NCBI GenBank assembly: GCA_021325335.1
Contig: JAJPHJ010000037.1
Coordinates: 1 to 33,969, forward strand
Direction of reading: 5' to 3'
Source: Pseudomonadota bacterium
GTDB lineage: Bacteria > Vulcanimicrobiota > Vulcanimicrobiia > Eremiobacterales > Eremiobacteraceae
Length of the DNA: 33,969 nucleotides
Under the pieces are notes generated by a model. That model worked only from the letters and a program-made list of their open reading frames with translations, had not been told where the DNA came from and did not search any database. This document shows positions 511 through 21,587 of this stretch, piece by piece. Position numbers and translations under genes: made by a program. Positions within the stretch are counted from its first letter, which is position 1; each line of letters opens with the position of its first letter.

Positions 511-942
511 ATGAATTCGCGCGCGCTCCATATCATCATCGAACCGCACGCTGCGAGCGCCCTCGCGCAGGCGGTGCTCGCGCTGCACATGGCGATCGCC
601 GCTTTCATCGTTCTCGGCACCGTCGCGATCCCGCTCGGCGCTCGATTCGGCTCGGTCATCGTCCGGATTTTGTGGTGGCGGTTCGCCCATCTGATCGCGA
701 TGGGGGCTGTCGCGCTGCAAAAACTGCTGGGCAACTCGTGCTTCTTATCGGTGTGGGAGCGGCGCCTCGTGGACATCGCAAGCGAGATACCACACCGCCC
801 GCCGGCCTTTCAGTCCTTCGGGGAGCACGTGCTCTATTGGAACCTGCCGCTTTGGTTTTTTAGCGCGCTCTATAGCCTCATGTTCGTCTTCGTCGCGACC
901 ATGTGGTTCGTCGTGCCCCCGCGGCAAAAACGGGCTACTTGA
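511..942 (+). CDS. Small membrane protein, DUF2784-like
   Basis: 143 aa with several hydrophobic helices; 'LALHMAIAAFIVLGT...WWRFAHLIAMGAVALQKLLGNSCFLSVWER' resembles the DUF2784 pattern; overlaps the end of the convergent RND gene by 8 nt. Confidence 0.6.
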   Translation: MNSRALHIIIEPHAASALAQAVLALHMAIAAFIVLGTVAIPLGARFGSVIVRILWWRFAHLIAMGAVALQKLLGNSCFLSVWERRLVDIASEIPHRPPAFQSFGEHVLYWNLPLWFFSALYSLMFVFVATMWFVVPPRQKRAT

Positions 943-3900
943 GGCGCGCGTATTCCGGTTCGCCCGGCCGCGGCGCGCCGGGAGACAGCGGAGGCACCTG
1001 CTCTTCTTCCACGTCGAGGTCGATCTTGTCAGGCGCGATGCGCATGTAGACGACCGGGATCAGCACGAGCGTCAACGCGAGCGAGCTTGCGAGTCCGCCG
1101 ATGATGACGACGCCCAAGGCTTGGCGGACCTGAGAGCCGTTGACGAGCCCGAGAGCGAGGGGCGTCATGCCCGCGATCATCGCGCACGTCGTCATGACGA
1201 TCGGGCGGAAGCGGATGCGCGCGCTCTGCCGGATCGCGTCGAGCTTGTCGTGGCCGCGCGTGCGCAGCGTGTTCGCGTAGTCCACGAGCAGAATGCCGTT
1301 CTTCGAGACCAGGCCGACGAGCATCACCACGCCGATGAGCGAGAACAGATTCAAGGTCTGATGGGTCAGCGCGAGGAGCGTGAAGGCGCCGACCGATGCG
1401 CACGGCACCGAGAACATGATGATGAACGGCATCGTGTAGCCGTTATAGAGCGCCACCATGAGGAGATAGACGAGGACCATCGAGAGCGCAAGCGCGGCGC
1501 CCATGCCCACCACGACGTCGTGGAGGTTCTGCTGGTTGCCGTTCGGATTGGCGTGCACGTCGACCCAGGCCGGGAGATGCGCGTTGCGCAGGGTCTTGAT
1601 GAAGGCATTCTGCACGATCGAAAGCGGCACGGAGGGTGCGGTGTTGGCCGTGACGTGCACGACCGTTTGCCGGTTGACGCGGGTGATGATGGGCGGCGCG
1701 GGCGCGTTTTGCAGCTGCGCGATCTGACCGACCGAGACGAGCGTGCCATCGATGGCTCGAATTCTGATGCTGCGAATATCGTCGAGCGAGGTCTGAGCGG
1801 AGACGGGAAAGATCACGTAGACGTCTTTGAGCCCATTGACCGCCTCGAACTGCGTTGCAACCACGCCGCCCATCGCTGCGCGGATGGCGGTCGAGGCGGC
1901 GCCGATGCTGACCCCGAGCGCCTGCGCGGCCTGCCGGTCGAATTCCACGTCTACTTGCGGTGCCAGGTCGAGCGCGGAGCTCGTCACGTTCGCGGCGCCT
2001 TTCGTGTTGCGCAGCAGCTGCGCGACCTGGGCCGCGAATGCGGTCGGATCCCCGTGCAGGTTCGTCACGATGTAGTCGATCGGCTGCGCGTTGCCGCCGC
2101 CCGTGCTCGTCGCCGGGATCACGGAAATCGTCGCGCCGGAAGCGAGCGGGCGTAGTTCCTTCTTCAGCTCGTCCACCCAGTAGTCGGTCGAGTGCTTCCG
2201 ATCGTCGCGCAGGAACAGGTGGATCTGGCCGACGTTGCCTTGCGTCAGGTAGCCGCCGAACGGCGATGAGTACGCGCCCGCGATCGCGACGTCGGTCTGC
2301 AGGTCGGGAATGTCGAGCACTTTGCGATCGAGTCGCTGGACGACCCCGTTGACCTGCGCGAGCGGCGTCCCCGTCGGATAGGTGATCTGGATGAAGATCT
2401 CGCCCCGGTCTACCGACGGGATGAACGTGAAACCGACAAGACCGAGCGGCAAGAGCGTGAGCGAAGCTAAGAACAGGCCCCCGGCGGTGCCCGCGACGAG
2501 CAACGGACGCTCGATCGCCTTGGGCAGGACGCGGTCGGCATACCACGCGCGGACGCGCTCGAACCACGCGTCGAACGCCGCGATCGGCCGCCACGGTTTC
2601 CAGCGACTGCGCAAAGACCAGCGTCCGGCGAGCGTGGGCGTGACGGTGAAGCTCGTCCATAAAGAGGTCAACGTGGCGACGACGACCACGAGCGCGAACT
2701 CGCTCATGAACCTGCCCACGACGCCGGGCAAGAAGGCCATCGGCAAGAACACGACCACGTCGACGAGCGTGATCACGATGGCTGCAAACCCGATCTCCGT
2801 CCGGCCGCTGATCGCGGCCGCAAGCGGCGCTTCGCCCTCCTTATGGTGGCGCTCGATGTTCTCGAGCACCACGATCGAGTCGTCCACCAGGATCCCAACG
2901 ATGATCGTCATGCCCAACAGCGACACCGTGTCGATCGTGAAGTTCGCGAACTTCATCGCGATGAGCGTGATGAGCAACGAGAACGGGATGGCGATGAGCA
3001 CGACGATCGAGCTGCGCCACGAACCCAAGAAAAAGAGCATGACGATGGCGGTGAGCGCGATGCCCTCTTCGAGCGTGCGCAGGACGCCGTCGATCTGCTG
3101 CTTGGTGAACCTGGCTTGGACGTTGACGACCGAAAACGTGATGCCCGGGAACTGCTGCTGGAGCCGCGGCAGGGCTTTGAGCACGTTCGCGGAGGTGGAT
3201 ACCTCGTTTGCCTGGGTCGTCTTTTGGACCGAGATGTTCACGCGCGGCACGCCGCCCTGATACGAGAACACGCGCCGCGGCTCGTAGGCGTCGGTCACGG
3301 TGGAAACGTCGCCGACCCGGACGATATTCGAGCTCGTGCTCCAGGCATTGAGCGCGCCCGCGGGCTGCGCCGATGGCGATGATTGCAGCTGCGAGACGCC
3401 ATTGAGCAGCAGCGGCAGGTTGGCCACCGACTGCGGCGCTTGGATGTCGCCGCGCACGTCGACGAGCGTTTCGCGATTGGGTTGATAGACGATACCGCCG
3501 GGTAGGCGTTGATTGTTCGTGGCGAGCGACGAGACCACGTCGTTGATGGTGAACCCAGAGCCTTGCAGCTGGACCGGGTTGACCGTCACTTCGAGCGAGG
3601 GCGTCACCGTGCCGTTGGCCGTGACGAAGCCGACGCCGTTCACTTGCTCGAGCGCGGGTATCACTTGATTCGTGACGATGTCTGAGAGCCCGGCGAGCGA
3701 ATAGGCGCGCGACGAGGCCGCGAGCGAGACGACCGTCGATTCTCCGGGATTGACGGTCGAGATGGTGGGCGAGCGCAGGTCGGTGGGCAGGAGCGATTGC
3801 GCGGCTTGCACGCGCCGCTGCACCTCGACCTCAGCGTTGGTCTCATTGGCGTCGAGGTTGAAGATCGCCGAGATCGTCGCCGAACCTTGGCGGATCGTCG

Positions 3901-4144
3901 AGTTGATAACGTTGAGGTCCGGCGCGCCGGCGATCTGATCCTCGAGGGGCCGCACGATATTGTCGCGCATCTCCGTCGGCGATGCGCCGGTATAGTTGAC
4001 TTGCACCGTGACGGTCGGCAGATCGATGTTCGGGAACTGCTGCTGCGTGAGGTTGGCGTAGGCGATGAGACCGCCCACCATGACGAACGCGATCATCACG
4101 AAGACGAGCGCAGGACGGTGGACGAAGAGACGCGTCAGCCACAT
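935..4144 (-). CDS. RND multidrug efflux transporter, HAE1/AcrB family (1069 aa)
   Basis: Full-length RND: 'QQFPNIDLPTVTVQVNYTGASPTEMRDNIVRPLEDQI', 'GILVDDSIVVLENIERHHKEG', 'GLVSKNGILLVDYANTLR', 'RFRPIVMTTCAMIAGMTPLALG'. Confidence 0.95.
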   Translation of the reverse strand: MWLTRLFVHRPALVFVMIAFVMVGGLIAYANLTQQQFPNIDLPTVTVQVNYTGASPTEMRDNIVRPLEDQIAGAPDLNVINSTIRQGSATISAIFNLDANETNAEVEVQRRVQAAQSLLPTDLRSPTISTVNPGESTVVSLAASSRAYSLAGLSDIVTNQVIPALEQVNGVGFVTANGTVTPSLEVTVNPVQLQGSGFTINDVVSSLATNNQRLPGGIVYQPNRETLVDVRGDIQAPQSVANLPLLLNGVSQLQSSPSAQPAGALNAWSTSSNIVRVGDVSTVTDAYEPRRVFSYQGGVPRVNISVQKTTQANEVSTSANVLKALPRLQQQFPGITFSVVNVQARFTKQQIDGVLRTLEEGIALTAIVMLFFLGSWRSSIVVLIAIPFSLLITLIAMKFANFTIDTVSLLGMTIIVGILVDDSIVVLENIERHHKEGEAPLAAAISGRTEIGFAAIVITLVDVVVFLPMAFLPGVVGRFMSEFALVVVVATLTSLWTSFTVTPTLAGRWSLRSRWKPWRPIAAFDAWFERVRAWYADRVLPKAIERPLLVAGTAGGLFLASLTLLPLGLVGFTFIPSVDRGEIFIQITYPTGTPLAQVNGVVQRLDRKVLDIPDLQTDVAIAGAYSSPFGGYLTQGNVGQIHLFLRDDRKHSTDYWVDELKKELRPLASGATISVIPATSTGGGNAQPIDYIVTNLHGDPTAFAAQVAQLLRNTKGAANVTSSALDLAPQVDVEFDRQAAQALGVSIGAASTAIRAAMGGVVATQFEAVNGLKDVYVIFPVSAQTSLDDIRSIRIRAIDGTLVSVGQIAQLQNAPAPPIITRVNRQTVVHVTANTAPSVPLSIVQNAFIKTLRNAHLPAWVDVHANPNGNQQNLHDVVVGMGAALALSMVLVYLLMVALYNGYTMPFIIMFSVPCASVGAFTLLALTHQTLNLFSLIGVVMLVGLVSKNGILLVDYANTLRTRGHDKLDAIRQSARIRFRPIVMTTCAMIAGMTPLALGLVNGSQVRQALGVVIIGGLASSLALTLVLIPVVYMRIAPDKIDLDVEEEQVPPLSPGAPRPGEPEYARLK

Positions 4145-4148
4145 TGGG

Positions 4149-5366
4149 TCAGCGCACTGCGACCTTCTCGCCGTCCGTCACGCCGGCTTGCCCGTTCGCG
4201 ACCACGACCGCACCTTGCGGCAATCCCGTCACCACCGCGTCAGCACGATCCTCGGCGACTTCGCTGACATGGGCGACCCGCGCAGTACCGTCCGTAACGG
4301 TCAACACGGTCTGATGCGTGTCGTCGAGAAAAGCGCTGACCGGCACCGCGATGCCGCGTAACGGCGGCGCGCTCACCTGCGCCGATACCGTCATGCCCGG
4401 ACGCAAGGCTTGCGACCGGTTCGGAATCTTGACCTTCACGATAAATCCCGCCCCGTTCGGCGAGGTGGGCGAGAGCACGGCGACCACGCTGCCTGCGAAC
4501 GAGCGCTGTGGCACGGACGGGGAGCTGAGGGTGGCCCTGGCTCCCTGCACGATGCCCGCGACTTGGGATCCAAACGCGTTGAGCTCCGCGTAGACGTTGT
4601 CGACCTCTTGGAGCGTGAAGATCTGCCGCGTTCCCGGATATTCGCCCGCATTGAGGTTGCGGTTCACGACGACGCCGTCGATGGGCGACACGATGTCCGC
4701 GCGATCGATCTGGGCTTCGATCTGCTGCAACGCCGCTGCAGCTTGATCGACGTTTGCTTTTTGCAGGCCCTGGTCTTGCGTGCCGTTGGCCTGCGCGTTC
4801 TCGACCGCTTGGGCGAACGCGGCTTGGGCCGCGGCGACCGCTTTTTGATCGACGTCCACTTGCGTGCGTTGCGTGTCGACCGCCTGCTGCGCGATGTACC
4901 CTTGCGTCAGCAGCTCTTCGTCGCGCTGCAGATTCGCTTGCGCCAGCTGCAGGTTCGCTTTCGCTTGCGCGAGCCCGGCTTGCGCCGCGCGCACTTGATC
5001 GCCCCCTTGGCTGATGGAAAGACTCGCTTGATACTGCGTCTGGGCGAGGTGCGCGGCCGCTTGGCTTGCGTTTGCGGACAGGTCAGCCGTGTTGAGGCGC
5101 GCGAGCACCTGCCCCGCTCGCACCGGATCGCCTTCGTTGACCAAGACCGCGTCTGTCGGTTCCTGGAGCGACGTGGTGATGGCGACGTTCTGCAACGGCG
5201 CGATGATGCCGGACAAGACGATAGCCGGGTGAACGGTGCGTTGCGCCGCCGTCGCGGTCGTCACGGTGGGAGGTGGCGGCGCGGTTTGTGTCGTGCGGGC
5301 GCAAGCGGCGATGGCGAAAAGACAAGCCGCGACCAGACACCGAACCACAAACCTTTCGCTCGCCAT
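4149..5366 (-). CDS. RND periplasmic adaptor (HlyD/membrane fusion protein family)
   Basis: Start set at MASERFVVRCLVAACLFAIAACARTTQ (lipoprotein-like signal); lipoyl/barrel motifs 'VNEGDPVRAGQVLARLNTADL' and 'IVSPIDGVVVNRNLNAGEYPG'; 4 nt upstream of the RND gene. The longer ORF to 8084 is an out-of-frame extension through the TBDR gene. Confidence 0.92.
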   Translation of the reverse strand: MASERFVVRCLVAACLFAIAACARTTQTAPPPPTVTTATAAQRTVHPAIVLSGIIAPLQNVAITTSLQEPTDAVLVNEGDPVRAGQVLARLNTADLSANASQAAAHLAQTQYQASLSISQGGDQVRAAQAGLAQAKANLQLAQANLQRDEELLTQGYIAQQAVDTQRTQVDVDQKAVAAAQAAFAQAVENAQANGTQDQGLQKANVDQAAAALQQIEAQIDRADIVSPIDGVVVNRNLNAGEYPGTRQIFTLQEVDNVYAELNAFGSQVAGIVQGARATLSSPSVPQRSFAGSVVAVLSPTSPNGAGFIVKVKIPNRSQALRPGMTVSAQVSAPPLRGIAVPVSAFLDDTHQTVLTVTDGTARVAHVSEVAEDRADAVVTGLPQGAVVVANGQAGVTDGEKVAVR

Positions 5367-5381
5367 GACGGGGGTGTCGTA

Positions 5382-5387
5382 ACTATA
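5382..5387 (-). promoter_or_regulatory. Putative extended -10 (TGCTATAGT) upstream of the RND adaptor
   Basis: Minus strand reads TGC-TATAGT, 15 nt before the start at 5366; suggests an internal promoter in the TBDR-adaptor gap. Confidence 0.35.
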
Positions 5388-5443
5388 GCATCCGACCCTG
5401 AGAAAAGCTTGAGAGGGTCTGCGGACGGCCGGCCTAGCGCCCG

Positions 5444-8400
5444 TCATTGCGGGGGTGGGCCACCGCTGTCTTGTGGGACGTTTCGCACGATGTATAGCCC
5501 GATCGCGGGCGCAAAGTTTACGGCGGGCAAGCGGGCGGCGCCGAGCTGCAGCGCTGCGATCTCCGCCTGCGAACCGGCCGAAATGCGGGCGCAATTCAGT
5601 AGCGCCGGAATGCCGATCGGTGCTTGCGGCGTCAATTCCAACCACCATCCTTTGGCCGCGGTATGGGGCATGACGGTCCAGCCGGCCGGTGCGGACGGCG
5701 CGGCGGTGCCGGCGGTTTTTGCGGCGACGTACTGGGCGAGCGATGAGAGCAGGTCTTGCGCCATCGGCTTCAGGTCGCTCGTGCAGCGATCCGAATCGAC
5801 AACGGCGAGCGGCTGCGTGGGCGGCGTCGCCGGCAGACGGTAGACGCGGAACTGCTCTTGCCCTGCGACCGGCGGTTGACGCACGATGTAGAGTCCCAGT
5901 GCGGGCGCGTATGCGAGCGGGCTGCGCAAGAACGAACTCGACTCGGGCGTGTACGCGTGCACCGCCATGGCCTGATCCTTCGTGGCGACATGGATGGACG
6001 CGCACCCGAAAAGCCCGCGCATCGCGTCGAAGGATTGCGGCTCGAAGGTGAGGGCGTAGGTCGACTGCAGCGGGTGATAGCCGAGAGTGAAGCCGGGCAC
6101 GCTCGGCATCTGCGCGGGCAGCGTCGTCGGATATCCGCGTGCAGTCTTCAGCGCCTCGATCGCCGCGACGTATGCTTTCACCGCGTCGAGGGTTTGCGCT
6201 GCCGTCGCGGCTGACTGCGGGCTGCAACTCGGCCGATTCGTGTCGGGCGCGAACGGGTTCGGGGGCGGCGCCTGCGGCAAGCCTTGCGGCAGACTTGCGA
6301 AGAATCCGCCGCCGCGGCCGCCCGGACCGGAAAAGCCTCCGGGCCGCGGACTCGGCGGCGTGCTGGCATGCCATTCTTTCGCCTGCGCGGCGGTTTGACC
6401 GTATCCCACGTGCACCGAATAGGTCACCTGCAGCGTGCGCGGCGCGAGCGGCCGCGCGATCACGGGCAGCGATCCGACGCCGACGGTCGGCGGTCCGACC
6501 GCATAGGACGAGGACGCGAAGGCGTAGCCGAATTTGTCGAAGATGTTGCTCTCGGACAGCGAGAGAGAGCCGTGGGTGAAGTCGTACTCCAAGCCCGCGT
6601 CGGCCGTGACGAACCCTGGCAAGAATTGGCGGTTGTCGGGGCTGTTGTAGCGGGCATCCGCGAGGATCTCGAGCGGTGAGTTGAACGCGCGGTAGTCGAA
6701 CGTCACGCCGGCCTGATGGAGCGGTACCCCGGGCAACTGCGAACCCGAGATGATCGATGAATAGACATTGGTCAGGCGCGGGTCGTCTGTGACGGGCTTG
6801 ACGACTTGCGTGGAATAGAACGGTTCGGCGGCCAGCGTCTTGGTGAGGTTGAAGTCGCCCTGTAGCTGGATGCCTTCGTACACTTCTTGCACGCCTGAGA
6901 CCGGCACGCTCAGATAGAGGTCGTTCGGTTGGAAGGTCGTCGCCGGCTCGTTGCAGCCCCCAGCCGAGTCGAAGATCTGCCCGATCTGCGCGAAGTAGCC
7001 GGGTGGGAAGTAGTTCGGCGGGAATGCGGTTCCGTTCACCTGCGCATTGAGCAACACGTCGTTTTGCACTTGCCGGTAGAGCGACAGCGAAAGGTCGCCG
7101 ACGCGCGGCCAATCGTGCTGCCACGTCGCGCGCGCGCTGAACGCGGTCTGGTGGCCCGGTGCATCGCCGGGTCCCGAGCCGTATGCCGTGCCGCTCTGGC
7201 AGTCGAACGAAAGCTGCGTGGGGTCGCTCAGAACCCCGAAGCGCGGCGGCCCCGCGCCGTTGTTGCCGAAGTCGACGTTGCCTGCGAAGGCGTCGATCTG
7301 CGAGGGATTCCATTGCGCGTGAACCCCCGCGAGAAGCGAGTAGCCGCGAAGGTTCGCCCTGGCGACGCCGACATGTTCGCCAAGCGTGAGGGTGTCGTTC
7401 GAACGGATGGTGTCGTCGAGCGAGAGCGACGAGTACGAGCTCGAGCCTTGTGCGTTGCCGAAAAATGTTTGCGACGGCACGAGCGCCACCGAGCTCACAT
7501 TGTTCGACGAGGTCGTGGCCAAAATAGAGAGCGTGTGCCGCTCGCGCGAGGGCAGCTGCGCGCTGAGCGTCGCGCCCCGGCTCGAGCCGGTCGTATTCGT
7601 GCCGAACGGTGAATACACGCCATCGACGTATTGCGAGAGCAGGTCGCGCGTGGCGTTGGTCTGCGTGCCGAAGAGAGAGAATTGCATCGCGGTCGCGCCC
7701 ACGAAGGCGGTGTCGCTGAGCGATTCGAGCGCGAGATGGCGGTAGTTCGAGTTGCCGGGACCGTATCCGCATGGGATAGGTCCGGTCTGCGTCGTGCACA
7801 GCGCGTCGTTGAAGCCGTTGGAAGAGACGAACATGCCGGCGATCGACTGCGCCCCGCCGATGTTGGCCCGCAGCTTGATGAGATCGCCGCCGGTTTCGTT
7901 GCCCGCTTGATGGACGTAGTCGAAGCCGCTCGCATCCAGGTAGCGAGCGCCGTCGAGTTGGTTGTCGCTGCCCCGGATCGCGTGCAGGTATGCGATCCCG
8001 ATACCGCCCGAGGTGCCTTGCGCGGACAAAAGCGTATCGGCGTTGCCCAGATTGCCGAACATCTGCGTCGCGCCGAACTGCCATGTCCGCGTCGGCTCGA
8101 GCGTGCGATAGTTGACGGAACCTCCCAGAGCGCCGGCCACGGGATTGAAACTCACCGACGCGCCGCCGAAGAGATCGGAGCTGATCATGCGCAGGTCTGC
8201 GGCGCTGCCGGGACCGTTGAGCGGAATGCCGTCGAGCATCACCTGCGTCTGCGACGGGTCATGCCCTTCGAGAGAGATGGTTTCGGGCGCGTCGTCGCTC
8301 GCCGAATCGGAGCCGACCGAAACGCCGGCGAGTTTGTTCAGCGCGTCGTTGAGGCTTGTGGAAAGCTTGCGGATCGGACTGTCTTGCGAAACGTTCGTGC

Positions 8401-8836
8401 TCGAGATACTGGCTTGCGACGTGACGACGATCGTGCCGAGCGTCTTCGGGCCTGACTGGACCGCAAGCGTGACGGCGACGCTCACCACTTGGCCGGAGAC
8501 GACTTCAAAGCTCGCGGTCGTGATCGGCGCGTACCCGCCCTTGATGATGCGCGCCGAATAGACCCCGGGAGGCGAATCCGTAAAAACGACCTTGCCGTTG
8601 CTCGTCGTGAGTTCGCTCGCCATGACGGGTCCTTCGAGCAGCACGCGCGCGTAGGCAAGCGGCGCTTTGCTTTGGGCGTCGGTCACCGTGATGACGATCT
8701 GACCGTTTTGGTCTTGCGCTGCCGCAGGCGCGCAGACAAATCCGACGCTCGCTCCGACGGCGGCGAGGGAGACGGCGAGCTTGACAGCCAGGATGCGTCG
8801 CATGAGGGGCGAGCGCAGGATCCGCGCAAATTCCAT
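5444..8836 (-). CDS. TonB-dependent receptor with N-terminal carboxypeptidase-regulatory-like domain and a long C-terminal extension
   Basis: Signal peptide 'MRRILAVKLAVSLAAVGASVGFVCAPAAAQ'; 'GQIVITVTDAQSKAPLAYARVLLEG' regulatory-like domain; plug 'ISLEGHDPSQTQVMLDGIPLNGPGSAADLRMISSDLFGG'; many amphipathic barrel strands. ORF extends to 8959; start assigned at MEFARI (8836), with 8803 also possible. Confidence 0.88.
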   Translation of the reverse strand: MEFARILRSPLMRRILAVKLAVSLAAVGASVGFVCAPAAAQDQNGQIVITVTDAQSKAPLAYARVLLEGPVMASELTTSNGKVVFTDSPPGVYSARIIKGGYAPITTASFEVVSGQVVSVAVTLAVQSGPKTLGTIVVTSQASISSTNVSQDSPIRKLSTSLNDALNKLAGVSVGSDSASDDAPETISLEGHDPSQTQVMLDGIPLNGPGSAADLRMISSDLFGGASVSFNPVAGALGGSVNYRTLEPTRTWQFGATQMFGNLGNADTLLSAQGTSGGIGIAYLHAIRGSDNQLDGARYLDASGFDYVHQAGNETGGDLIKLRANIGGAQSIAGMFVSSNGFNDALCTTQTGPIPCGYGPGNSNYRHLALESLSDTAFVGATAMQFSLFGTQTNATRDLLSQYVDGVYSPFGTNTTGSSRGATLSAQLPSRERHTLSILATTSSNNVSSVALVPSQTFFGNAQGSSSYSSLSLDDTIRSNDTLTLGEHVGVARANLRGYSLLAGVHAQWNPSQIDAFAGNVDFGNNGAGPPRFGVLSDPTQLSFDCQSGTAYGSGPGDAPGHQTAFSARATWQHDWPRVGDLSLSLYRQVQNDVLLNAQVNGTAFPPNYFPPGYFAQIGQIFDSAGGCNEPATTFQPNDLYLSVPVSGVQEVYEGIQLQGDFNLTKTLAAEPFYSTQVVKPVTDDPRLTNVYSSIISGSQLPGVPLHQAGVTFDYRAFNSPLEILADARYNSPDNRQFLPGFVTADAGLEYDFTHGSLSLSESNIFDKFGYAFASSSYAVGPPTVGVGSLPVIARPLAPRTLQVTYSVHVGYGQTAAQAKEWHASTPPSPRPGGFSGPGGRGGGFFASLPQGLPQAPPPNPFAPDTNRPSCSPQSAATAAQTLDAVKAYVAAIEALKTARGYPTTLPAQMPSVPGFTLGYHPLQSTYALTFEPQSFDAMRGLFGCASIHVATKDQAMAVHAYTPESSSFLRSPLAYAPALGLYIVRQPPVAGQEQFRVYRLPATPPTQPLAVVDSDRCTSDLKPMAQDLLSSLAQYVAAKTAGTAAPSAPAGWTVMPHTAAKGWWLELTPQAPIGIPALLNCARISAGSQAEIAALQLGAARLPAVNFAPAIGLYIVRNVPQDSGGPPPQ

Positions 8837-8958
8837 GTGCGTCAAGTGTAGCCGAAGGCCCTTGGATGCCACTGAGAAGGACGCTGGGGCTTGCTTGCGG
8901 CTGCTATTTTTCGCCTGAAAAGGGTGCTCATTCTGAGGCTGGATTAAGCCTTGCGGCA

Positions 8959-8964
8959 TACAAT
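8959..8964 (+). promoter_or_regulatory. Putative -10 element (TACAAT) just upstream of the response regulator
   Basis: TACAAT ends 9 nt before the ATG at 8974, implying a very short or absent leader; no clear -35 seen. Confidence 0.4.
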
Positions 8965-8973
8965 AGCTGAGAA

Positions 8974-9657
8974 ATGCCGAGGAACTCCAAGGTTCTGGTC
9001 GTGGACGACGAGCGTTCGATGCGGGATATGTTGCGCTTGGGTCTGGAGCAGCAGGGCTATGTCGTCAAAGACCTGCCGGACGGGCGCGGCATTGATGGGA
9101 TCATCGGCGACTGGCAGCCCGACGCCATCTTGCTCGACGTCATGATGCCCTTTGCCGACGGGTTCACGCTCCTGCCCGTCATCCGCCGCCGGACCCAAGC
9201 CCCCGTCATCATGCTCACGGCGAAGTCCGACGTCGACGATCGGGTCACAGGTCTGGGTCTCGGCGCCGACGATTATGTCCCCAAACCGTTCGCCTTTCCC
9301 GAGCTTGTCAGCAGGCTCGAGGCGGCCTTACGGCGGCCCCACATCTCCGCGCCGGAATTCTTGCGCTATGAGGATTTGAGCGTCAATCTCAAGACGCGCG
9401 AAGTCACGCGCAACGGGCGCTCCGTGTCGCTCACGAACAAAGAGTTCACGCTGCTGACCACGCTCATGCGCGAGCCGCGTCGCATCTTCAGCAAGGAAGA
9501 ACTGCTGGCGCTTGTCTGGGGCGAAGATTTCGAAGGCGAAGTGGGCAACGTCGAGACGTATATCTCGTACCTGCGCGCCAAGATCGACACCGACGTGAAC
9601 GCCAAACTCATCCACACGGTGCGCGGCGCCGGCTACTCGCTGCGCAGCGCCAAATAG
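8974..9657 (+). CDS. OmpR/PhoB-family response regulator
   Basis: Receiver domain 'VLVVDDERSMRDML...DAILLDVMMPFADGFTLL...LTAKSDVDDRVTGLGLGADDYVPKPF' plus winged-helix 'LTNKEFTLLTTLMREPRRIFSKEELLALVWG...VETYISYLRAKID...IHTVRGAGYSLR'. Confidence 0.96.
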   Translation: MPRNSKVLVVDDERSMRDMLRLGLEQQGYVVKDLPDGRGIDGIIGDWQPDAILLDVMMPFADGFTLLPVIRRRTQAPVIMLTAKSDVDDRVTGLGLGADDYVPKPFAFPELVSRLEAALRRPHISAPEFLRYEDLSVNLKTREVTRNGRSVSLTNKEFTLLTTLMREPRRIFSKEELLALVWGEDFEGEVGNVETYISYLRAKIDTDVNAKLIHTVRGAGYSLRSAK

Positions 9658-10082: not shown

Positions 10083-11594
10083 TCAGTTCGAAGAGGCGTG
10101 TTGCCAGGCGGGAAAGCGGAGCTGCACGGTCGTGCCTTTCCCGAGCGCCGAATCCAAAGAGACGGAACCGCCGGCCCGTCCGACCGCTCGCTCGACGATG
10201 GCAAGTCCAAGGCCGGAGCCCGAGATGGACCCGCCCATCTCGCCGCGGGAGAAGCGTTCGAAGGCGCGTGCCCTCACTTCAGGAGACATTCCCGGCCCGT
10301 TGTCACTCACCGCGACGTAGACTGAATCGCCGGTCGCGTTCACCTTGGCTTCGATGTTCGAGCCTGGCGCGTACTTGAGCGCATTGTCGATGAGATTGCC
10401 GATCGCTTCGTAGAGCTCTGACTCGGAGACTTGGATGAAGGAATCGTGCTGGGCATTCAGCGTCAGGCGTGCCCCGTTGGCGAGCGGGCGGAACGACTCC
10501 ACCACGTTGGCTGCGACGTCTGCCGCGTCGAGGATCTTCACGTCGTGTGGTTCTTGACTCTCGAGGCGCGTGAGCAGCAGCAGTTTTTGGATGAGCACGC
10601 TGATGCGCCGGCCTTGGTCGTCGATCTCCGAAAACACCCGTGCCGCCATGTCGGAATCGGCGCTCACGCCCTGGCGCAGCAGCTGCACGTAGCCCATGAT
10701 CACGGCGAGCGGGGTGCGCAGCTCGTGGCCCGCATCCGCGACAAACTGGCGCATCTTGGCCTCGATCTCGGAGCGTTGTTTGGTCGTGTTCTCCATCTCG
10801 GTGGCCACCGCGTTGAAGGCGTCGACGAGCTGACGCGCGTCTTGGTCGTCGGGGTCGAAAGATTCCAACCGTGCGTGGTCGCCTTGCGCCAAGCGCAGCA
10901 ATCCACTGCGCAATCGCTCGACCGGCTTCATGGTGACGCCGAACATCCGCCGGCTGACGAGCAGGACGATGGCGAAGGCAAGCACGATGACGGCGCCGCT
11001 GATGAACCGCTCCAGCGCCTGGATCGAATTGACCGAATCTTGCGTTGGTGCGAAGATCACGGTCGCACCGTTGATCCGCACGAACGACACCGGTTCGCTC
11101 ATGGTGGCAAACGGCGAACGGATGAAGCTGATGCCGTGCGTCCGGGGAGGACGCATCGCGAACAGCGTCCCCCGAAAACCGAGGTCACCGCTCTCGGCCT
11201 CGCCGGCACGTTGCGCCGATGCGTTCGGCGAAGGCGACCCCGGTGGCGGCCCGAGCAAGGGCGAGCCCGGACCGCTTGGCCGAGCGGGCGCGAGGCTCGC
11301 GTCACCCGCGAGCAGCTTGCCCGAGTCATCGAAGACCGCCGCCGTGAAACCGTTGACGGAATCGACGAGCGCGATCAGCCCTTGCGCGACTTGCGCCGGC
11401 GATTCATGGGCCGCCTGCAACCTGTCGGCGGTGTGCTGCACATCGTCAGCGATGCGAGCGCGCATGTTCGCGTCGAACCACAGATTGGGAGCGACGAGCG
11501 TCAAACCCCACGACATCACCGCAAGGACCGCAAGCGCGAACACGGCCGCGATCGCGGCAAGCCAAAAGCTAGAGGCCCAGGTACGTCGGGTCAC
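10083..11594 (-). CDS. Sensor histidine kinase (TM-extracytoplasmic-TM-HAMP-HisKA-HATPase)
   Basis: H-box 'FVADAGHELRTPLAVIMGYVQLL'; N-box 'ELYEAIGNLIDNALKYAPGS'; G boxes 'VSDNGPGMSPE', 'GSGLGLAIVERAV'. Confidence 0.96.
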   Translation of the reverse strand: MTRRTWASSFWLAAIAAVFALAVLAVMSWGLTLVAPNLWFDANMRARIADDVQHTADRLQAAHESPAQVAQGLIALVDSVNGFTAAVFDDSGKLLAGDASLAPARPSGPGSPLLGPPPGSPSPNASAQRAGEAESGDLGFRGTLFAMRPPRTHGISFIRSPFATMSEPVSFVRINGATVIFAPTQDSVNSIQALERFISGAVIVLAFAIVLLVSRRMFGVTMKPVERLRSGLLRLAQGDHARLESFDPDDQDARQLVDAFNAVATEMENTTKQRSEIEAKMRQFVADAGHELRTPLAVIMGYVQLLRQGVSADSDMAARVFSEIDDQGRRISVLIQKLLLLTRLESQEPHDVKILDAADVAANVVESFRPLANGARLTLNAQHDSFIQVSESELYEAIGNLIDNALKYAPGSNIEAKVNATGDSVYVAVSDNGPGMSPEVRARAFERFSRGEMGGSISGSGLGLAIVERAVGRAGGSVSLDSALGKGTTVQLRFPAWQHASSN

Positions 11595-13107: not shown

Positions 13108-16098
13108 CTACGGCAAGCGATGGTAGGCCTGCAGCAGCGAAGAGTAGGTCGCGCGTAACTGCGCCGCGGTTTGGAGCTGGCTTTGCGTGGGCGCCTGGTA
13201 CGAGTTCGAGCTGATGCGGCTTATCAAATCCAAGAGGCGCTCGCGCAGTTGCGCGATGATGCCGAGGTCCTCGACGTTGTGCGGATCGCCGGTCAGCCGT
13301 CCGCGCAAGGCCAGCAGCGATGCGCGACGGTTCCCCGCCGCCTGGGGCAGACGCCGGTCGATGGCGTTGAGCATCGTGTCCACGTCGCCGACCTGCGCGT
13401 AAAGCGTCGAAAGGGTCTGGTAGCGCGATCGCATCTGATCCGGCGTTTGGGGATCGCGCGGGTCTGCTTTGACGACGGCCGGTTTGGATTCGGAGAAACC
13501 GTCGACCTTGAGCCGGATCGTGTATGTGCCGGGAAGAACTTCCGCGCCGCTGTCGGGGCCTTGATTTTGCTTATAGGTTCCGAGCCACTTTGCAGGACCG
13601 TCCTCGGTCAGGTCCCACGAGGTGCGATGGAAGCCAGGCTGGCGAGGGACGTCCGCCAAGCGCCTCACGATGCGACCGCTGCCGTCTTCGATGGCGATGC
13701 TGGCGGCGCGCCGCACGCCGGCAGGCAGCCAGTACGTGATGAGCACGCCGTATTCGACGTTCGGCCCAGCGAAGACGTTCGCCGGTAGATCTCCGCTTGC
13801 AAAAGAGTTGACGTCCGTCCATTGCCACCAGCGGAAGCTATCGCGTGGCGCAAAAAGCGTGGGCGCGGCGGGATGGACGGAGCCGAGCTCTTGGAGCGCG
13901 CGCACATCGTCGAAGATCCAAACGCCGCGCCCGTGGCTTGCCACGATGAGGTCGTCGCGCTCCGGCTGGATGGCGAGATCGTAGATGGCCGACGCCGGCA
14001 TGTTCAAACGCAGCGACCGCCAGTGCGCGCCGCGGTCCCACGAAGCCCACACCCCACGCTGCGTTCCCGCGTAGAGGAGCTTTGGGTCTACAGGGTCCTG
14101 GCGAATCGTGCGGACGAAAAGCGTCCCCGGGAGATCTCCGGATATCGAACTCCAGCGCGCGCCGAAATCGTCGGTCGCGAACACATGCGGACTGTCGTCG
14201 CCGAGCATGTGGTTGTCCACGGCGACGAACGCGGTATTCGCCCCAGTGCGACTTGCGTCGATAGTCGCGACGCGCCCCCAATGCGGCGCGCCGCGCGGCG
14301 TCACGTCGATCCAATGAGCGCCGCCGTCGCGGCTCAGCTGGACCAGACCATCATCCGTCCCCGCCCAGATGGTCGCGGCGTCGACGGGTGATGGCGCGAG
14401 GGAGAGCAGCGTATCTGAGATTTCCGCGCCGGAGATGTCGGCGTTGACGGGACCGCCGGGAATCTGTTGATGCGACTTGTCGTCACGCGTGAGATCCGGG
14501 CTGATGACGCTCCAGTGCTGACCTCGGTCGATGGTTTTGAAGATGACGTTGCCGCCGACGAGCGCCGCGCCATCGCTCGTGAACGCAAGGGGCGAGTTCC
14601 AATTGAAGCGGTAGGCGAGCGTCCGCGCCGGGACCCAGTTCAGCTCGGAGTCCGGTGAAACATCGTACGCTTGGCGCGTGCGAGCATCCCAAACGAAGAC
14701 TTGCCCCGTGCCGTCGTTGGTCGAGGTAGACCACACAATGTTCGGATCTGCTGGGTCGTACAGCACCCACATGCCGTCGCCCGGTCCGACGAGGTGCCAA
14801 TCGCGGTTGAGCACACCAAGACCGCTATCGGCGTTGGCTGCGCCGCACCATTGGTTATTGTCTTGAAGTCCGACGCAGACGTGATAGTTCGGCAACGCAT
14901 CGTCGAACCCGACGTGATACGGTTGCGCGAGCGGCAGTCCATACGGTTGGCTCCAGACGGAGCCCCCGTCACCCGACAGGATGAAGCCCTCGTCGGTGCC
15001 CACCGCAACGCGCCGGCCGTCCGCAGACCACCACACGACGTGATAATCCCAGCCCGCGTTTGGCGCGATGCGATGGAAGGAACGGCCGGCGTCCGTCGAG
15101 AGCGAGAGGTCGGAGCCGGCGCTGATGAGATGATCCGGATTCGCCGGATCCACCGTGATGCGGCTGAAGTAAAACGGCCGCGCGCCTACGAGCGGGCTGC
15201 GCGGCAGTACATGCCACGTGAGGCCGGCGTCATCCGAGCGCCAAAGATCTCCGCTTTTCGACTGGATGATGCCGTAGAGCCGACGGCCCGAGCCCGCGGC
15301 AAGACCGATCCGGCCGGTAGGAGGCGATGGCAGCCCGTTGCCCACTATGTGGCGCCACGTTGCGCCGCCGTCATCCGAGCGGAAAACGCCGCCTTGGGAT
15401 CCGCCACTGACGAGCGTCCATGGCCTGCGGCGCACTTCGTACAGACCCGCCAGTAGCGTGTCCGGGCGGCCGGACACCCGCGCGATGTCGGAGACGCCGG
15501 TCGATTCGCCGGCGTAGAGGGTTTGCTGCCAGTGCGCCCCGGCGTCACCGGTCACATAGACGCCGCGCACCCGGCTGTCGCGAAACACCTGGCCCAGCAC
15601 GCCGACGACCACGCGGCCGGGGTTGCGGGGATCGATGGAGATGCAGGAAATGGCGCCGGCGTCTACCAGACCCAGGTGGCGCCACGTCTTGCCGCCGTCA
15701 CGCGTGTGCCAGATGCCATCGCCCATGGCGACGTCGTTGCGCGGATTCGATTCGCCCGTCCCCACCCAGATGTCGCGGCGATCCTGCGGAGCGACCGCGA
15801 TGGCTCCGATCGCGGCGCTGTCAGCGCTGTCGAATATCGGCGACCACGTAAGGCCCCCGTCCGTGGTCGCAAAGACGCCGCCGTCGGCGCCGCCCGCCAA
15901 ATAGAACAACGGATCGGCATCGCTGCCTGCGACTGCGGTGACCCGGCCTCCGCTGATCGCCGGACCGATCGAGCGGTACTGCAGGCCGCGCAAATCGATG
16001 CCTGAATCAGCGGCAGTTGCGGGCGCCAGGCTGGTTGCAACGATTGCTACAAGCAAAAATGGAAAGAGGGAAGAAAAACCTGTCATCATCCGAGGCAT
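13108..16098 (-). CDS. Secreted BNR/VPS10 (sortilin-like) beta-propeller protein
   Basis: Signal peptide, then repeated BNR motifs 'ATTDGGLTWSPIFD', 'HTRDGGKTWRHLG', 'RSDDGGATWRHIV', 'KTIDRGQHWSVIS', 'SWDRGAHWRSL'. Confidence 0.88.
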   Translation of the reverse strand: MPRMMTGFSSLFPFLLVAIVATSLAPATAADSGIDLRGLQYRSIGPAISGGRVTAVAGSDADPLFYLAGGADGGVFATTDGGLTWSPIFDSADSAAIGAIAVAPQDRRDIWVGTGESNPRNDVAMGDGIWHTRDGGKTWRHLGLVDAGAISCISIDPRNPGRVVVGVLGQVFRDSRVRGVYVTGDAGAHWQQTLYAGESTGVSDIARVSGRPDTLLAGLYEVRRRPWTLVSGGSQGGVFRSDDGGATWRHIVGNGLPSPPTGRIGLAAGSGRRLYGIIQSKSGDLWRSDDAGLTWHVLPRSPLVGARPFYFSRITVDPANPDHLISAGSDLSLSTDAGRSFHRIAPNAGWDYHVVWWSADGRRVAVGTDEGFILSGDGGSVWSQPYGLPLAQPYHVGFDDALPNYHVCVGLQDNNQWCGAANADSGLGVLNRDWHLVGPGDGMWVLYDPADPNIVWSTSTNDGTGQVFVWDARTRQAYDVSPDSELNWVPARTLAYRFNWNSPLAFTSDGAALVGGNVIFKTIDRGQHWSVISPDLTRDDKSHQQIPGGPVNADISGAEISDTLLSLAPSPVDAATIWAGTDDGLVQLSRDGGAHWIDVTPRGAPHWGRVATIDASRTGANTAFVAVDNHMLGDDSPHVFATDDFGARWSSISGDLPGTLFVRTIRQDPVDPKLLYAGTQRGVWASWDRGAHWRSLRLNMPASAIYDLAIQPERDDLIVASHGRGVWIFDDVRALQELGSVHPAAPTLFAPRDSFRWWQWTDVNSFASGDLPANVFAGPNVEYGVLITYWLPAGVRRAASIAIEDGSGRIVRRLADVPRQPGFHRTSWDLTEDGPAKWLGTYKQNQGPDSGAEVLPGTYTIRLKVDGFSESKPAVVKADPRDPQTPDQMRSRYQTLSTLYAQVGDVDTMLNAIDRRLPQAAGNRRASLLALRGRLTGDPHNVEDLGIIAQLRERLLDLISRISSNSYQAPTQSQLQTAAQLRATYSSLLQAYHRLP

Positions 16099-17949: not shown

Positions 17950-18822
17950 TTAAGCGTAGGCGTCCTGGAGCGAGACGAGTTTCGGGTCGATGCGTTCAAT
18001 CGCAAGCGAGGCGATGGGCACGCTTTCCTTCGCGAGCGTGAGTTCTTCGAGCGTCGGGCGCAGCTCGCGATAGAATATGCCAAGGGGGATCTTGCCGGGC
18101 TGCATGAGCGTCGCAAAGGCGCGCGCGCGATCCGCTGGGTCGTAGTCCGCGATGTCCTCGACGTGATAGACGTTCTCTTTGAACCACTTGTAGGTGTTGA
18201 TCTTATTGAACGTCACGCAGGGCGACATGACCTCCACGATGGCAAAACCTGGATGACGAACGGCTTCCTTGATCATCTCCGTCATCTGCTTGGGCTCGGA
18301 TGAAAATCCGCGCGCCACGAACGTGCCGCCGGCGGCGAGGGCGATCGCCAGTCCGTTGACGGGGGCGTCGGGATTGCCCTCGGGGTGGGGGCCCGCCTTG
18401 AAGCCGAGCATGCTTGTGGGCGATGACTGCCCCTTCGTCAAGCCATACGTCTGGTTGTCCATGACGATGTAGGTCATGTTCGGATTGCGCCGCACCGCGT
18501 GGAGAAAGTGGCCGGCGCCGATGGCGTAACCGTCGCCATCGCCTCCGGCGACGATGACCGTGAGGTCCTTATTCGCAAGCTTCACCGCGGTCGCGGTCGG
18601 CAACGCTCTGCCGTGGACACCATGAAATGCGTAGGAGTGCAAGTAGCCTGAGATCTTGCCCGAGCAACCGATGCCGGAGATGAACGCGACGTTGCGCGGC
18701 TCGAGCGCGAGGTCGGCGCATGCCTGTTTGAGCGCCGCGAGCACGCCGAAATCCCCGCAGCCTGCGCACCACCATGAAGGCGTGGCGGTCGCGAAATCCT
18801 TTGGACCCAAGACGGTGGCCAA
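17950..18822 (-). CDS. korB: 2-oxoacid:ferredoxin oxidoreductase, beta subunit
   Basis: 'WWCAGCGDFGVLAALKQA', 'FISGIGCSGKISGYLHSYAFHGVHGRALPTATAVKLAN', 'VIVAGGDGDGYAIGAGHFLHAVRRN', 'DNQTYGLTKGQSSPTS' (TPP-binding subunit). Confidence 0.93.
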   Translation of the reverse strand: MATVLGPKDFATATPSWWCAGCGDFGVLAALKQACADLALEPRNVAFISGIGCSGKISGYLHSYAFHGVHGRALPTATAVKLANKDLTVIVAGGDGDGYAIGAGHFLHAVRRNPNMTYIVMDNQTYGLTKGQSSPTSMLGFKAGPHPEGNPDAPVNGLAIALAAGGTFVARGFSSEPKQMTEMIKEAVRHPGFAIVEVMSPCVTFNKINTYKWFKENVYHVEDIADYDPADRARAFATLMQPGKIPLGIFYRELRPTLEELTLAKESVPIASLAIERIDPKLVSLQDAYA

Positions 18823-18833
18823 TGTCTATCCTT

Positions 18834-20597
18834 TCAGCGCGCAGCCAAACCGGCGGAGAGCTTGAGCTCTCGCTGGACGGCCTCGATGATCTCGATCGGC
18901 CGGAACGGCCGGCCGTTGTACTTGCGCACGGGGTGCATGCGTGGCAGCGGCCCTGTCACATAGCGGATCAAGCGCTCGAGCTGACCCGAGAAGTTGTTCT
19001 CGACGACGAAGATGTGCGACGTGCTCTCGATGAAAGCACGCACTTCTTCTTCCGGAAACGGCCACAGGGTGCGCAGCTGCAGGAAGCGCGTGGGGATCCC
19101 CTGTGCCGCAAGACGGTCTTGCGCTTCGCTCACGGGTCCGCGGTTCGCCCCGAACGCGATGAAGGCCACGCCCGCGCTGCGATCGCCGAGGATGTTCGCT
19201 TTTGGCAGTTCGGTCCGCATGGACTCGAGCTTGCGCATGCGCTTCTCCATCATGCGCGCGCGGTTTCGGGCATCTTCCGTGATCACGCCTTCTTCGTTAT
19301 GCTCGGAGCCCGGCTCGAGATGCATGCCGCCCTGGACGCCGGGGATAACGCGCGGTGAGACGCCGTCGTCGGCAAACGCGAAACGCTTGTATTCGCCGAA
19401 GGTGACGCCACCGTTGCGCACGAGCTTGCCGCGGTCGACCGCGACCGCGTCGAGCTCCAAGCGCGGAATGGTCTCCTTGCTTTGGCAGAGCGCTTGCTCC
19501 GTGAGCACGAACACCGGCAGCTGATAGCGCTCGGCCAGGTTGAAGGCGGCCACCGTGAGATAGAATGACTCTTCGACCGTGCCCGGCGAGATGACGACCT
19601 TCGGGATCTCGCCATGCCCCGAGAAGATCACATGGTTGAGGTTGCTCTGCTCGGTCTTCGTGGGCATCCCGGTGGAGGGGCCGGCGCGGGCGCATTCGAT
19701 GATGACGATCGGCGTTTCGACGACGCCCGCGAGGCCGATGCCTTCGGTCATGAGCGCTTGACCGGGCCCGGACGTGGCGGTCATCGCCCGCACGCCGGCA
19801 TATGCCGCTCCGATCGTCATATTGATCGCGGCGAGTTCGTCTTCTGCTTGCACGACGATGCCGCCGTAGCGCGGCGCGTGTTTCGCCATCCACTCGAGCA
19901 CGTCGGTCGCGGGCGTGATGGGATAGCCCGCCATGAAGCGGCAGCCGGCCACGAGCGCTCCGTAGCCGATCGCGTCGTTGCCCATCATGAGCAGGCGCTC
20001 TCCGTCCGCTCGAGCTGCGAGCGCGTAGCCGGAAGGGCGGGTGAAATGCTCTTTGACGTATTGCGCGCCCGCCTCGATGGCGCCGATGTTTTGCGCCACG
20101 ACTTTTTCGCCCTTGCGCTCCCACAGCTTCGTGATGAGCCCGCGGATGATGGCCGGGTCCATGCCAATGAGCTGGCCGAGCACGCCGAGCGAGATGGTGT
20201 TGCGCACGAGCTCCAGGCCGAGCTGCTGCTTCGCGATGTTAGCGAGCGGCACTTCATAGAAGAACACATCGTCGCGGCGGACGTTATCGGTGAGCTTCTC
20301 CGTCGAGTTGTCGAAGATCGCGAAGCCGCCGGGCCGCATCTCGGCGATGTGCTTCTCGACGCATTCAAGGTCGAAGGCGACCATCGCGTCGACCATATCC
20401 GCAACGCCGTAGTGCCGATGTTCGCCCGCGCGGATGACGTAGTTCGTATGGCCGCCGCGTATGCGCGAGGGGAAGTCCTTGAAGGTGTAGACCTCGAGAC
20501 CCATGCGTTTGAACACGCTGGCGATAAGGTCGCCCGTGGTCAGACTGCCGTCGCCGGCCTGGCCGCCGAACAGCACCTCGATATCGTTCGTGATCAC
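18834..20597 (-). CDS. korA: 2-oxoacid:ferredoxin oxidoreductase, fused gamma-alpha subunit
   Basis: Gamma part 'IEVLFGGQAGDGSLTTGDLIASVFKRMGLEVYTFKDFPSRIRGGHTNYVIR'; alpha part 'CRFMAGYPITPATDVLEWMAKH', 'AEDELAAINMTIGAAYAGVRAMTATSGPG'. Start assigned to GTG at 20597; the ORF upstream of this is non-homologous-looking. Confidence 0.92.
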   Translation of the reverse strand: MITNDIEVLFGGQAGDGSLTTGDLIASVFKRMGLEVYTFKDFPSRIRGGHTNYVIRAGEHRHYGVADMVDAMVAFDLECVEKHIAEMRPGGFAIFDNSTEKLTDNVRRDDVFFYEVPLANIAKQQLGLELVRNTISLGVLGQLIGMDPAIIRGLITKLWERKGEKVVAQNIGAIEAGAQYVKEHFTRPSGYALAARADGERLLMMGNDAIGYGALVAGCRFMAGYPITPATDVLEWMAKHAPRYGGIVVQAEDELAAINMTIGAAYAGVRAMTATSGPGQALMTEGIGLAGVVETPIVIIECARAGPSTGMPTKTEQSNLNHVIFSGHGEIPKVVISPGTVEESFYLTVAAFNLAERYQLPVFVLTEQALCQSKETIPRLELDAVAVDRGKLVRNGGVTFGEYKRFAFADDGVSPRVIPGVQGGMHLEPGSEHNEEGVITEDARNRARMMEKRMRKLESMRTELPKANILGDRSAGVAFIAFGANRGPVSEAQDRLAAQGIPTRFLQLRTLWPFPEEEVRAFIESTSHIFVVENNFSGQLERLIRYVTGPLPRMHPVRKYNGRPFRPIEIIEAVQRELKLSAGLAAR

Positions 20598-20768
20598 TCT
20601 TTGGATTATCGGCCTTTTGGAGCAGATGGGCGGCGGTTGGGCGCATCTCCATGTGACATGGGTCCATTGCGCGCTCGCCGACCTTAGGTGGTTTCCAAAA
20701 GGCGGAGCGCCTTCCTGCGGTCCGGGCGATGCAAGGCACAGCCGAACTCGTGCGCGTAGTGGCCTCGC

Positions 20769-21587
20769 GTGAGCACGCCTGGGCAAAAACCAGATTTCGA
20801 TACGCTGGCGACCGATTACGCGAAGTTCAGGACGTCCTATTCCGAAACGCTTTTCGATGCGATTCTTGGCTACGCGCGACTTGGAGCGAGCGGTTGCGTG
20901 CTCGACCTGGCATGCGGCACGGGTCTCGGCTTGCTCCCCTACGTGCGGCGCGGCTTTTCGGTGATCGGCGTCGATGTCGCCCCATCGATGGTCGAGCAAG
21001 CGCGACGGATACTGCCGCCGCACGCGCACGTGGAATTCCGCCTAGGCCGCGCGGAGCAGCTTCCGGTCCCCGACGCTTCGATCGACCTCGTCTCCTGCGC
21101 GCAGGCCTTTCACTGGTTCGAACCGCACGCCGCGTTCGCGGAATGCGCGCGGGTACTCGTCCCCGGCGGCGCGCTGGCGATCTTCTGGAAACATGCGGCG
21201 CCGGGCGATGTGTTGACCGCGACGAGCGAGGCGCTCGTCCGGGAGTGGCTCGGAGAAGAAGCCGTGCGCAGGTCGCGCGATCATGCGGACGAGCACATCG
21301 CCGGTTGGCCGGTGTTTTGGCAACAGGTCGCGGCGCAGGGCGAACCGGCGCAGGGGCGCTCCTTCATCGACGGCCGTAAGGAGGTCGTCGAGTTCATGCT
21401 CCCGCGGACTGGGGAAGAATTCGTGGGCTACCAGCGCTCGCGTGAAAAGATCCGCTTCGTACTCGGCGAGCGCCGCGACGAATTCTTGGCGGAGCTCGAG
21501 CGGCGGCTGCGCGCGGAAGGACCGATGGACAAACCTATCGATCAGCGCCAAGTGCAGTACGTTTTCCTCGCACGAAAGGCGGCTTGA
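20769..21587 (+). CDS. Class I SAM-dependent methyltransferase
   Basis: 'VLDLACGTGLGLLPYVRRGFSVIGVDVAPSMVEQAR' motif I, 'LVSCAQAFHWFEPHAAFAECARVLVPGGALAIFW'; GTG start. Confidence 0.9.
   Translation: MSTPGQKPDFDTLATDYAKFRTSYSETLFDAILGYARLGASGCVLDLACGTGLGLLPYVRRGFSVIGVDVAPSMVEQARRILPPHAHVEFRLGRAEQLPVPDASIDLVSCAQAFHWFEPHAAFAECARVLVPGGALAIFWKHAAPGDVLTATSEALVREWLGEEAVRRSRDHADEHIAGWPVFWQQVAAQGEPAQGRSFIDGRKEVVEFMLPRTGEEFVGYQRSREKIRFVLGERRDEFLAELERRLRAEGPMDKPIDQRQVQYVFLARKAA

Follow-up and report, generated by a model that had tools for sequence, protein, structure and literature searches.

We found that a TonB-dependent receptor of otherwise familiar type, encoded in the window (the whole stretch of 33,969 nt analysed here), carries a real, conserved and apparently undescribed tail behind its barrel. 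The tail consists of a linker and two related small domains; it is ancient and is conserved across one class of uncultured Ca. Eremiobacterota. The features of the window and of the stand-alone relatives of the tail are collected in Table 1. The receptor ORF (5444-8959, minus strand) is open throughout and its start is signal-peptide-like. The encoded TonB-dependent receptor is Oar-like (CarboxypepD_reg) in its architecture: in the Pfam scan the CarboxypepD_reg domain takes the place of an STN domain, which was absent at E≤1, the Plug domain scored above the cut-off and PF00593 stayed below threshold. The barrel was matched by Foldseek to the solved structures of Cir, FepA, FpvA and PfeA with E-values down to 2.7e-15, and its final strand is RTLQVTYSVHVGYG at 6398-6439. 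The AlphaFold model of the full receptor, computed from the ATG at 8836, is of low confidence (mean pLDDT 66.9). TonB_C proteins are encoded in the same genome as the tailed receptor. Elsewhere on the minus strand of the window we noted a 996-aa protein (13108-16098) with a Sortilin-Vps10 match (PF15902, E 1.2e-19) and a BNR repeat just below the cut-off, and two adjacent ORFs at 17950-21029, the first of which resembles by eye a 2-oxoacid:ferredoxin oxidoreductase beta subunit.

Table 1. Positions of the receptor, its parts and its neighbors in the window, and of stand-alone tail units at other loci.
Feature	Position	Strand	Remark
RND transporter, AcrB family	935-4144	-	Pfam ACR_tran, E 1e-214
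Efflux-type membrane fusion protein (MFP)	4149-5366	-	Lipobox-like LFAIAAC; read from ORF 4149-8084
TonB-dependent receptor with two-unit C-terminal tail	5444-8836	-	ORF opens at 8959; likely start ATG 8836
CarboxypepD_reg, N-terminal (Oar-type extension)	8465-8704	-	Pfam PF13620, E 1.4e-10
Candidate TonB box LGTIVVTSQA, ahead of plug	8411-8440	-	Read by position alone
Plug domain	8162-8413	-	Pfam PF07715, residues 183-266, E 2.4e-8
Transmembrane beta-barrel, about 22 strands	6398-8080	-	AlphaFold secondary structure and Foldseek
Gly/Pro-rich linker, 43 aa, predicted disordered	6269-6397	-	AlphaFold pLDDT < 50 for residues 807-849
Tail unit 1	5870-6268	-	Two Cys, in 6215-6229 and 5996-6010
Tail unit 2	5474-5833	-	Two Cys, in 5777-5791 and 5585-5599
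Duplication trace in DNA, copy 1	5484-5512		24/29 identical to copy 2 (83%)
Duplication trace in DNA, copy 2	5880-5908		24/29 identical to copy 1 (83%)
OmpR-type response regulator	8974-9657	+	Pfam Response_reg and Trans_reg_C; divergent from receptor gene
Sensor histidine kinase	10083-11594	-	Two TM helices flanking a ~170-residue periplasmic loop; beyond response regulator
Stand-alone unit	L139:7543-8085		Just upstream of tailed receptor gene, same strand
Stand-alone unit	L140:9677-10282		Just upstream of tailed receptor gene, same strand
Stand-alone unit	L141:9961-10527		Just upstream of tailed receptor gene, same strand
Stand-alone unit	L152:6394-6975		Just upstream of tailed receptor gene, same strand
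Stand-alone unit	L143:1942-2574		Short contig, no receptor matched
Stand-alone unit	L233:4625-5206		No receptor matched within the 12 kb read

The receptor extends about 310 residues beyond the last barrel strand, in good agreement with an earlier note on this DNA, which had proposed a C-terminal extension of about 300 aa. The same note had observed that the second TonB-dependent receptor of the window ends at its last strand, and this turned out to be the usual condition in the genome. In total 16 Plug matches and one tail were found there. Thirteen further receptors were inspected, two of which run off the contig or the stretch; the 11 that reach a stop codon all have their C-terminus at or a few residues past the final strand, as does the window's other receptor.

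The linker is followed by two units that are clearly related to each other. BLASTP aligned 134 columns of unit 1 and unit 2 with 29% identity (E 2e-10), and the profile-profile comparison gave an HH probability of 99.5% (E 5e-23). The similarity at the protein level shows that the units are homologous, and a chance repeat was rejected. A trace of the duplication is also visible in the DNA, where the two 29-nt segments pointed out earlier do share 24 bases, although such a match is weak evidence if taken alone. The Pro/Gly-rich linker and the two related units of the earlier note were hence recovered as described; of its more detailed account of the units the duplication stands, while the single central cysteine does not (each unit has two) and unit 1 starts further upstream than was proposed, at PPPNPF..C.

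Regarding the fold of the tail, AlphaFold run on the tail alone with 35 homologues returned a mean pLDDT of 89.3 and a pTM of 0.74. Each unit is predicted to consist of a helix, two strands, a helix, a strand, a short helix and two strands. Additional barrel strands were considered as an identity for the tail and rejected, since the model places two repeated alpha-beta units after the disordered linker. Exactly four cysteines at fixed columns, two per unit and none elsewhere in the tail, were found in 39 of 40 full-length homologues, one of each pair lying ahead of the first helix and the other after the second helix. This constancy suggests one bond per unit, so that a disulfide of its own probably closes each of them. 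Besides the cysteines, the alignment has conserved His, Tyr and Trp columns.

The tail appears to represent an uncatalogued, so far undescribed family of small domains. It gave no Pfam or NCBIfam match, the Pfam scan covering 39 tails, and the search of its fold against the PDB with Foldseek yielded no match at E≤0.001. Its sequence had one chance-level match in the PDB (E 0.85), and nothing was found in a viral structure library or, by tblastn, in plasmid records. An OmpA-family domain was rejected as the identity of the tail, being absent from 39 of 39 tails in Pfam, and no peptidoglycan-binding domain was detected in the same 39 tails. We also considered the head of a type IV pilin or pseudopilin, an idea prompted by a Cys-helix-YP motif followed by strands and by the Foldseek near-match 4d40. 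The best Foldseek match reached a probability of 0.63, a TM-score of 0.44 over 62 columns and an E-value of 0.5, and the HH probability against the class's own pilins was 1.6-3.7%, with scores slightly above those of column shuffles. The pilin identity was rejected, and the resemblance is a weak hint at most. Pilin-like proteins of the class (L157-L173) do show the Cys-helix-YP pattern, many of them with C-P-G-x-H, a superficial likeness to the tail unit.

With the tail of the window as query, matches were obtained in 73 of 101 related genomes. The profile search extended this to the phylum, where 96 of 149 genomes match, part of them with partial, one-unit tails; all 96 belong to the window's class of Ca. 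Eremiobacterota. A pattern scan of an 85,000-species collection, which was built on a closer set of tails and reaches only close relatives, yielded 38 loci; those titled by organism belong to Ca. Eremiobacterota, and several have no more than 'bacterium' or 'unidentified bacterium' as their title. The extension is thus conserved class-wide, and the question of whether it is a frequent, known receptor tail has a divided answer: it is frequent, within one class as far as visible, and no model or publication was found that would make it a known one. In a tree of the units, which is based on few columns and has long branches, a single branch (94/99) sets all unit-2 sequences apart from unit 1 and from the stand-alone forms. 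As this split spans all three families of the class, the simplest reading of the tree is a single duplication before the families separated.

Besides the two-unit form we found tails of one unit that a large Gly/Pro insert interrupts, at the 3' ends of receptor ORFs (L144-L149, L155, L156); the majority of these end in a GGGS-like motif. The idea that the extension could also occur as a protein of its own proved correct, with single units of secreted type at six loci, in 6 of 148 genomes, all with signal-peptide-like starts. The barrel subfamily also includes paralogues that lack the tail (L237, L238, L239, L241) and end shortly after the last strand.

The neighbors of tailed receptors that Pfam identified, in the subset scanned, include a response regulator and a histidine kinase. 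The kinases belong to one family: of its best 66 matches, 49 are encoded on the same strand as a two-unit tail and at most 6 kb upstream of it, the kinase of the window included. In seven more a receptor gene comes next and runs into the contig end, and four of these (G045, G051, G053, G078) have a barrel gene directly after the kinase on the same contig; in G018 and G036 the kinase was found without a receptor. The same kinase family is located downstream of one-unit receptors in 11 of 24 cases. In most of the linked kinases, two TM helices flank a periplasmic loop some 100-175 residues long. The window kinase is a divergent member of this family, its sensor half being about 20% identical to that of the main group. 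In the main group of family f2 the tailed receptor gene is preceded, in this order, by genes for a MalT/LuxR-like regulator, an HD-domain protein, a response regulator and a histidine kinase; at L039, L044, L061 and L063 the cluster upstream of the response regulator and kinase is conserved, its regulator being a MalT/LuxR-like ATPase and its HD-domain protein HD-GYP-like. That the kinase link has been kept although the order of the genes changed speaks for a functional connection of the tailed receptor with the two-component system. In the stretches examined, no linked two-component system was found beside the tailed receptors L034-L037 (family f3 and part of f1), nor beside most of the divergent two-unit paralogues (L052-L059), which shows that the tail does not strictly require the kinase as a partner, or the reverse.

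The earlier view of a soluble domain tethered to an outer-membrane barrel is supported and can be refined, since the tail is most likely periplasmic and not surface-exposed. The number of barrel strands in the model looks even, so the C-terminus should face the periplasm, and the signal-peptide-like starts of the stand-alone units agree with this location. Our favored reading, which we put forward tentatively, is that the tail could be a periplasmic docking module, braced by disulfides, of a receptor working with a two-component system. An ancestor of the class would have added the linker and two small alpha-beta domains to the C-terminus of an Oar-like receptor. Barrel and plug would bind or import a ligand at the outer membrane, and the tail would act as a flexible periplasmic docking or receiver arm, either keeping hold of the ligand on its way in or binding to a partner in the periplasm. 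The most plausible such partner would be the histidine kinase encoded at the locus, through its extracytoplasmic sensor. Receptor occupancy would then be reported, or the ligand delivered, to the two-component system controlling the locus, and the tail may in this manner connect uptake to sensing. A stricter version, in which the tail is a C-terminal signalling domain of undescribed fold that signals directly to the histidine kinase, as a mirror image of the FecA-type N-terminal domain, we regard as unlikely.

The kinase linkage may, on the other hand, stem solely from control of the receptor gene, with no contact to the tail. The tail could in that case be a periplasmic module that binds ligand or cargo and passes the substrate onward, while the kinase regulates expression and never touches it. 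We consider this rather doubtful, although related units are secreted as stand-alone proteins, several of them directly upstream of a receptor gene and one (L233) with no receptor matched nearby, some tailed receptors have no adjacent kinase, and the conserved His, Tyr and Trp columns would suit a binding module; the tail matches no known binding protein in sequence or fold, and the stand-alone forms occur in just six genomes. A structural or assembly element, either an anchor to the cell wall or to envelope proteins or an aid in barrel folding, is distinctly improbable. OmpA-family and peptidoglycan-binding domains are absent according to Pfam, and the existence of tail-less paralogues that end at the last strand indicates that barrels of this subfamily do not in general need the tail for folding, even though a linker with a disulfide-braced domain would fit a mechanical tether and OmpA likewise has a soluble domain after its barrel. 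In the window's own lineage the tail might couple the receptor to the downstream MFP-RND pump, with the barrel as its outer-membrane exit or entry port. The MFP starts (at about 5366) 77 bases past the receptor stop on the same strand and is followed by AcrB; in L031 the receptor is likewise followed by an MFP and then AcrB, and in L032 by an MFP. We saw this arrangement in only a few f1 genomes, while the tail occurs throughout the class, and think a pump connection very improbable indeed.

In the literature that we found, TonB-dependent receptors are sorted by the parts that precede the plug, and a conserved C-terminal module, mostly encoded next to a sensor kinase, would be a new way to equip them. 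If the signalling reading is true, the tail would provide a possible new route by which the outer membrane signals to a two-component system. The natural occurrence of one-unit, two-unit, stand-alone and tail-less forms makes experimental comparison within this domain family straightforward.

The publications found in a search on C-terminal extensions of TonB-dependent receptors did not concern such a tail; the extension described in one of them belongs to the lipoprotein BtuG1. OmpA consists of an 8-stranded barrel, a linker and a soluble periplasmic OmpA-family domain. The window receptor resembles the OmpA type in the order of barrel, linker and soluble domain, but the 8-stranded barrel and the OmpA-family domain are both absent here. 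With Oar-type transporters such as Oar of Myxococcus xanthus it shares the N-terminal order of CarboxypepD_reg, Plug and barrel. Oar takes part in protease secretion. A survey of 34,893 Oar-type proteins by Pfam sorted them by five N-terminal architectures and, in the section consulted, describes no C-terminal domain (PMC6434023), whereas the window receptor has one. In Pseudomonas aeruginosa the receptor PfeA is under the control of PfeS/PfeR, whose kinase senses ferric enterobactin in the periplasm after its import (PMC8001512). The PfeR-PfeS-PfeA gene cluster is comparable to the tailed receptors with their two-component genes and constitutes the nearest regulatory precedent. PfeA is not known to carry such a tail. 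FecA, FpvA, PupB and HasR possess an N-terminal periplasmic signalling domain whose partner is an anti-sigma regulator (PMC9249621), and such receptors come closest as a precedent for a signalling domain in the periplasm. If the tail is periplasmic, both types of receptor would have a small periplasmic domain that possibly signals to an inner-membrane regulator. The FecA-type domain is N-terminal and works with an anti-sigma regulator, in contrast to the tail of the window receptor, which is C-terminal, duplicated, without a Pfam family and encoded next to a histidine kinase.
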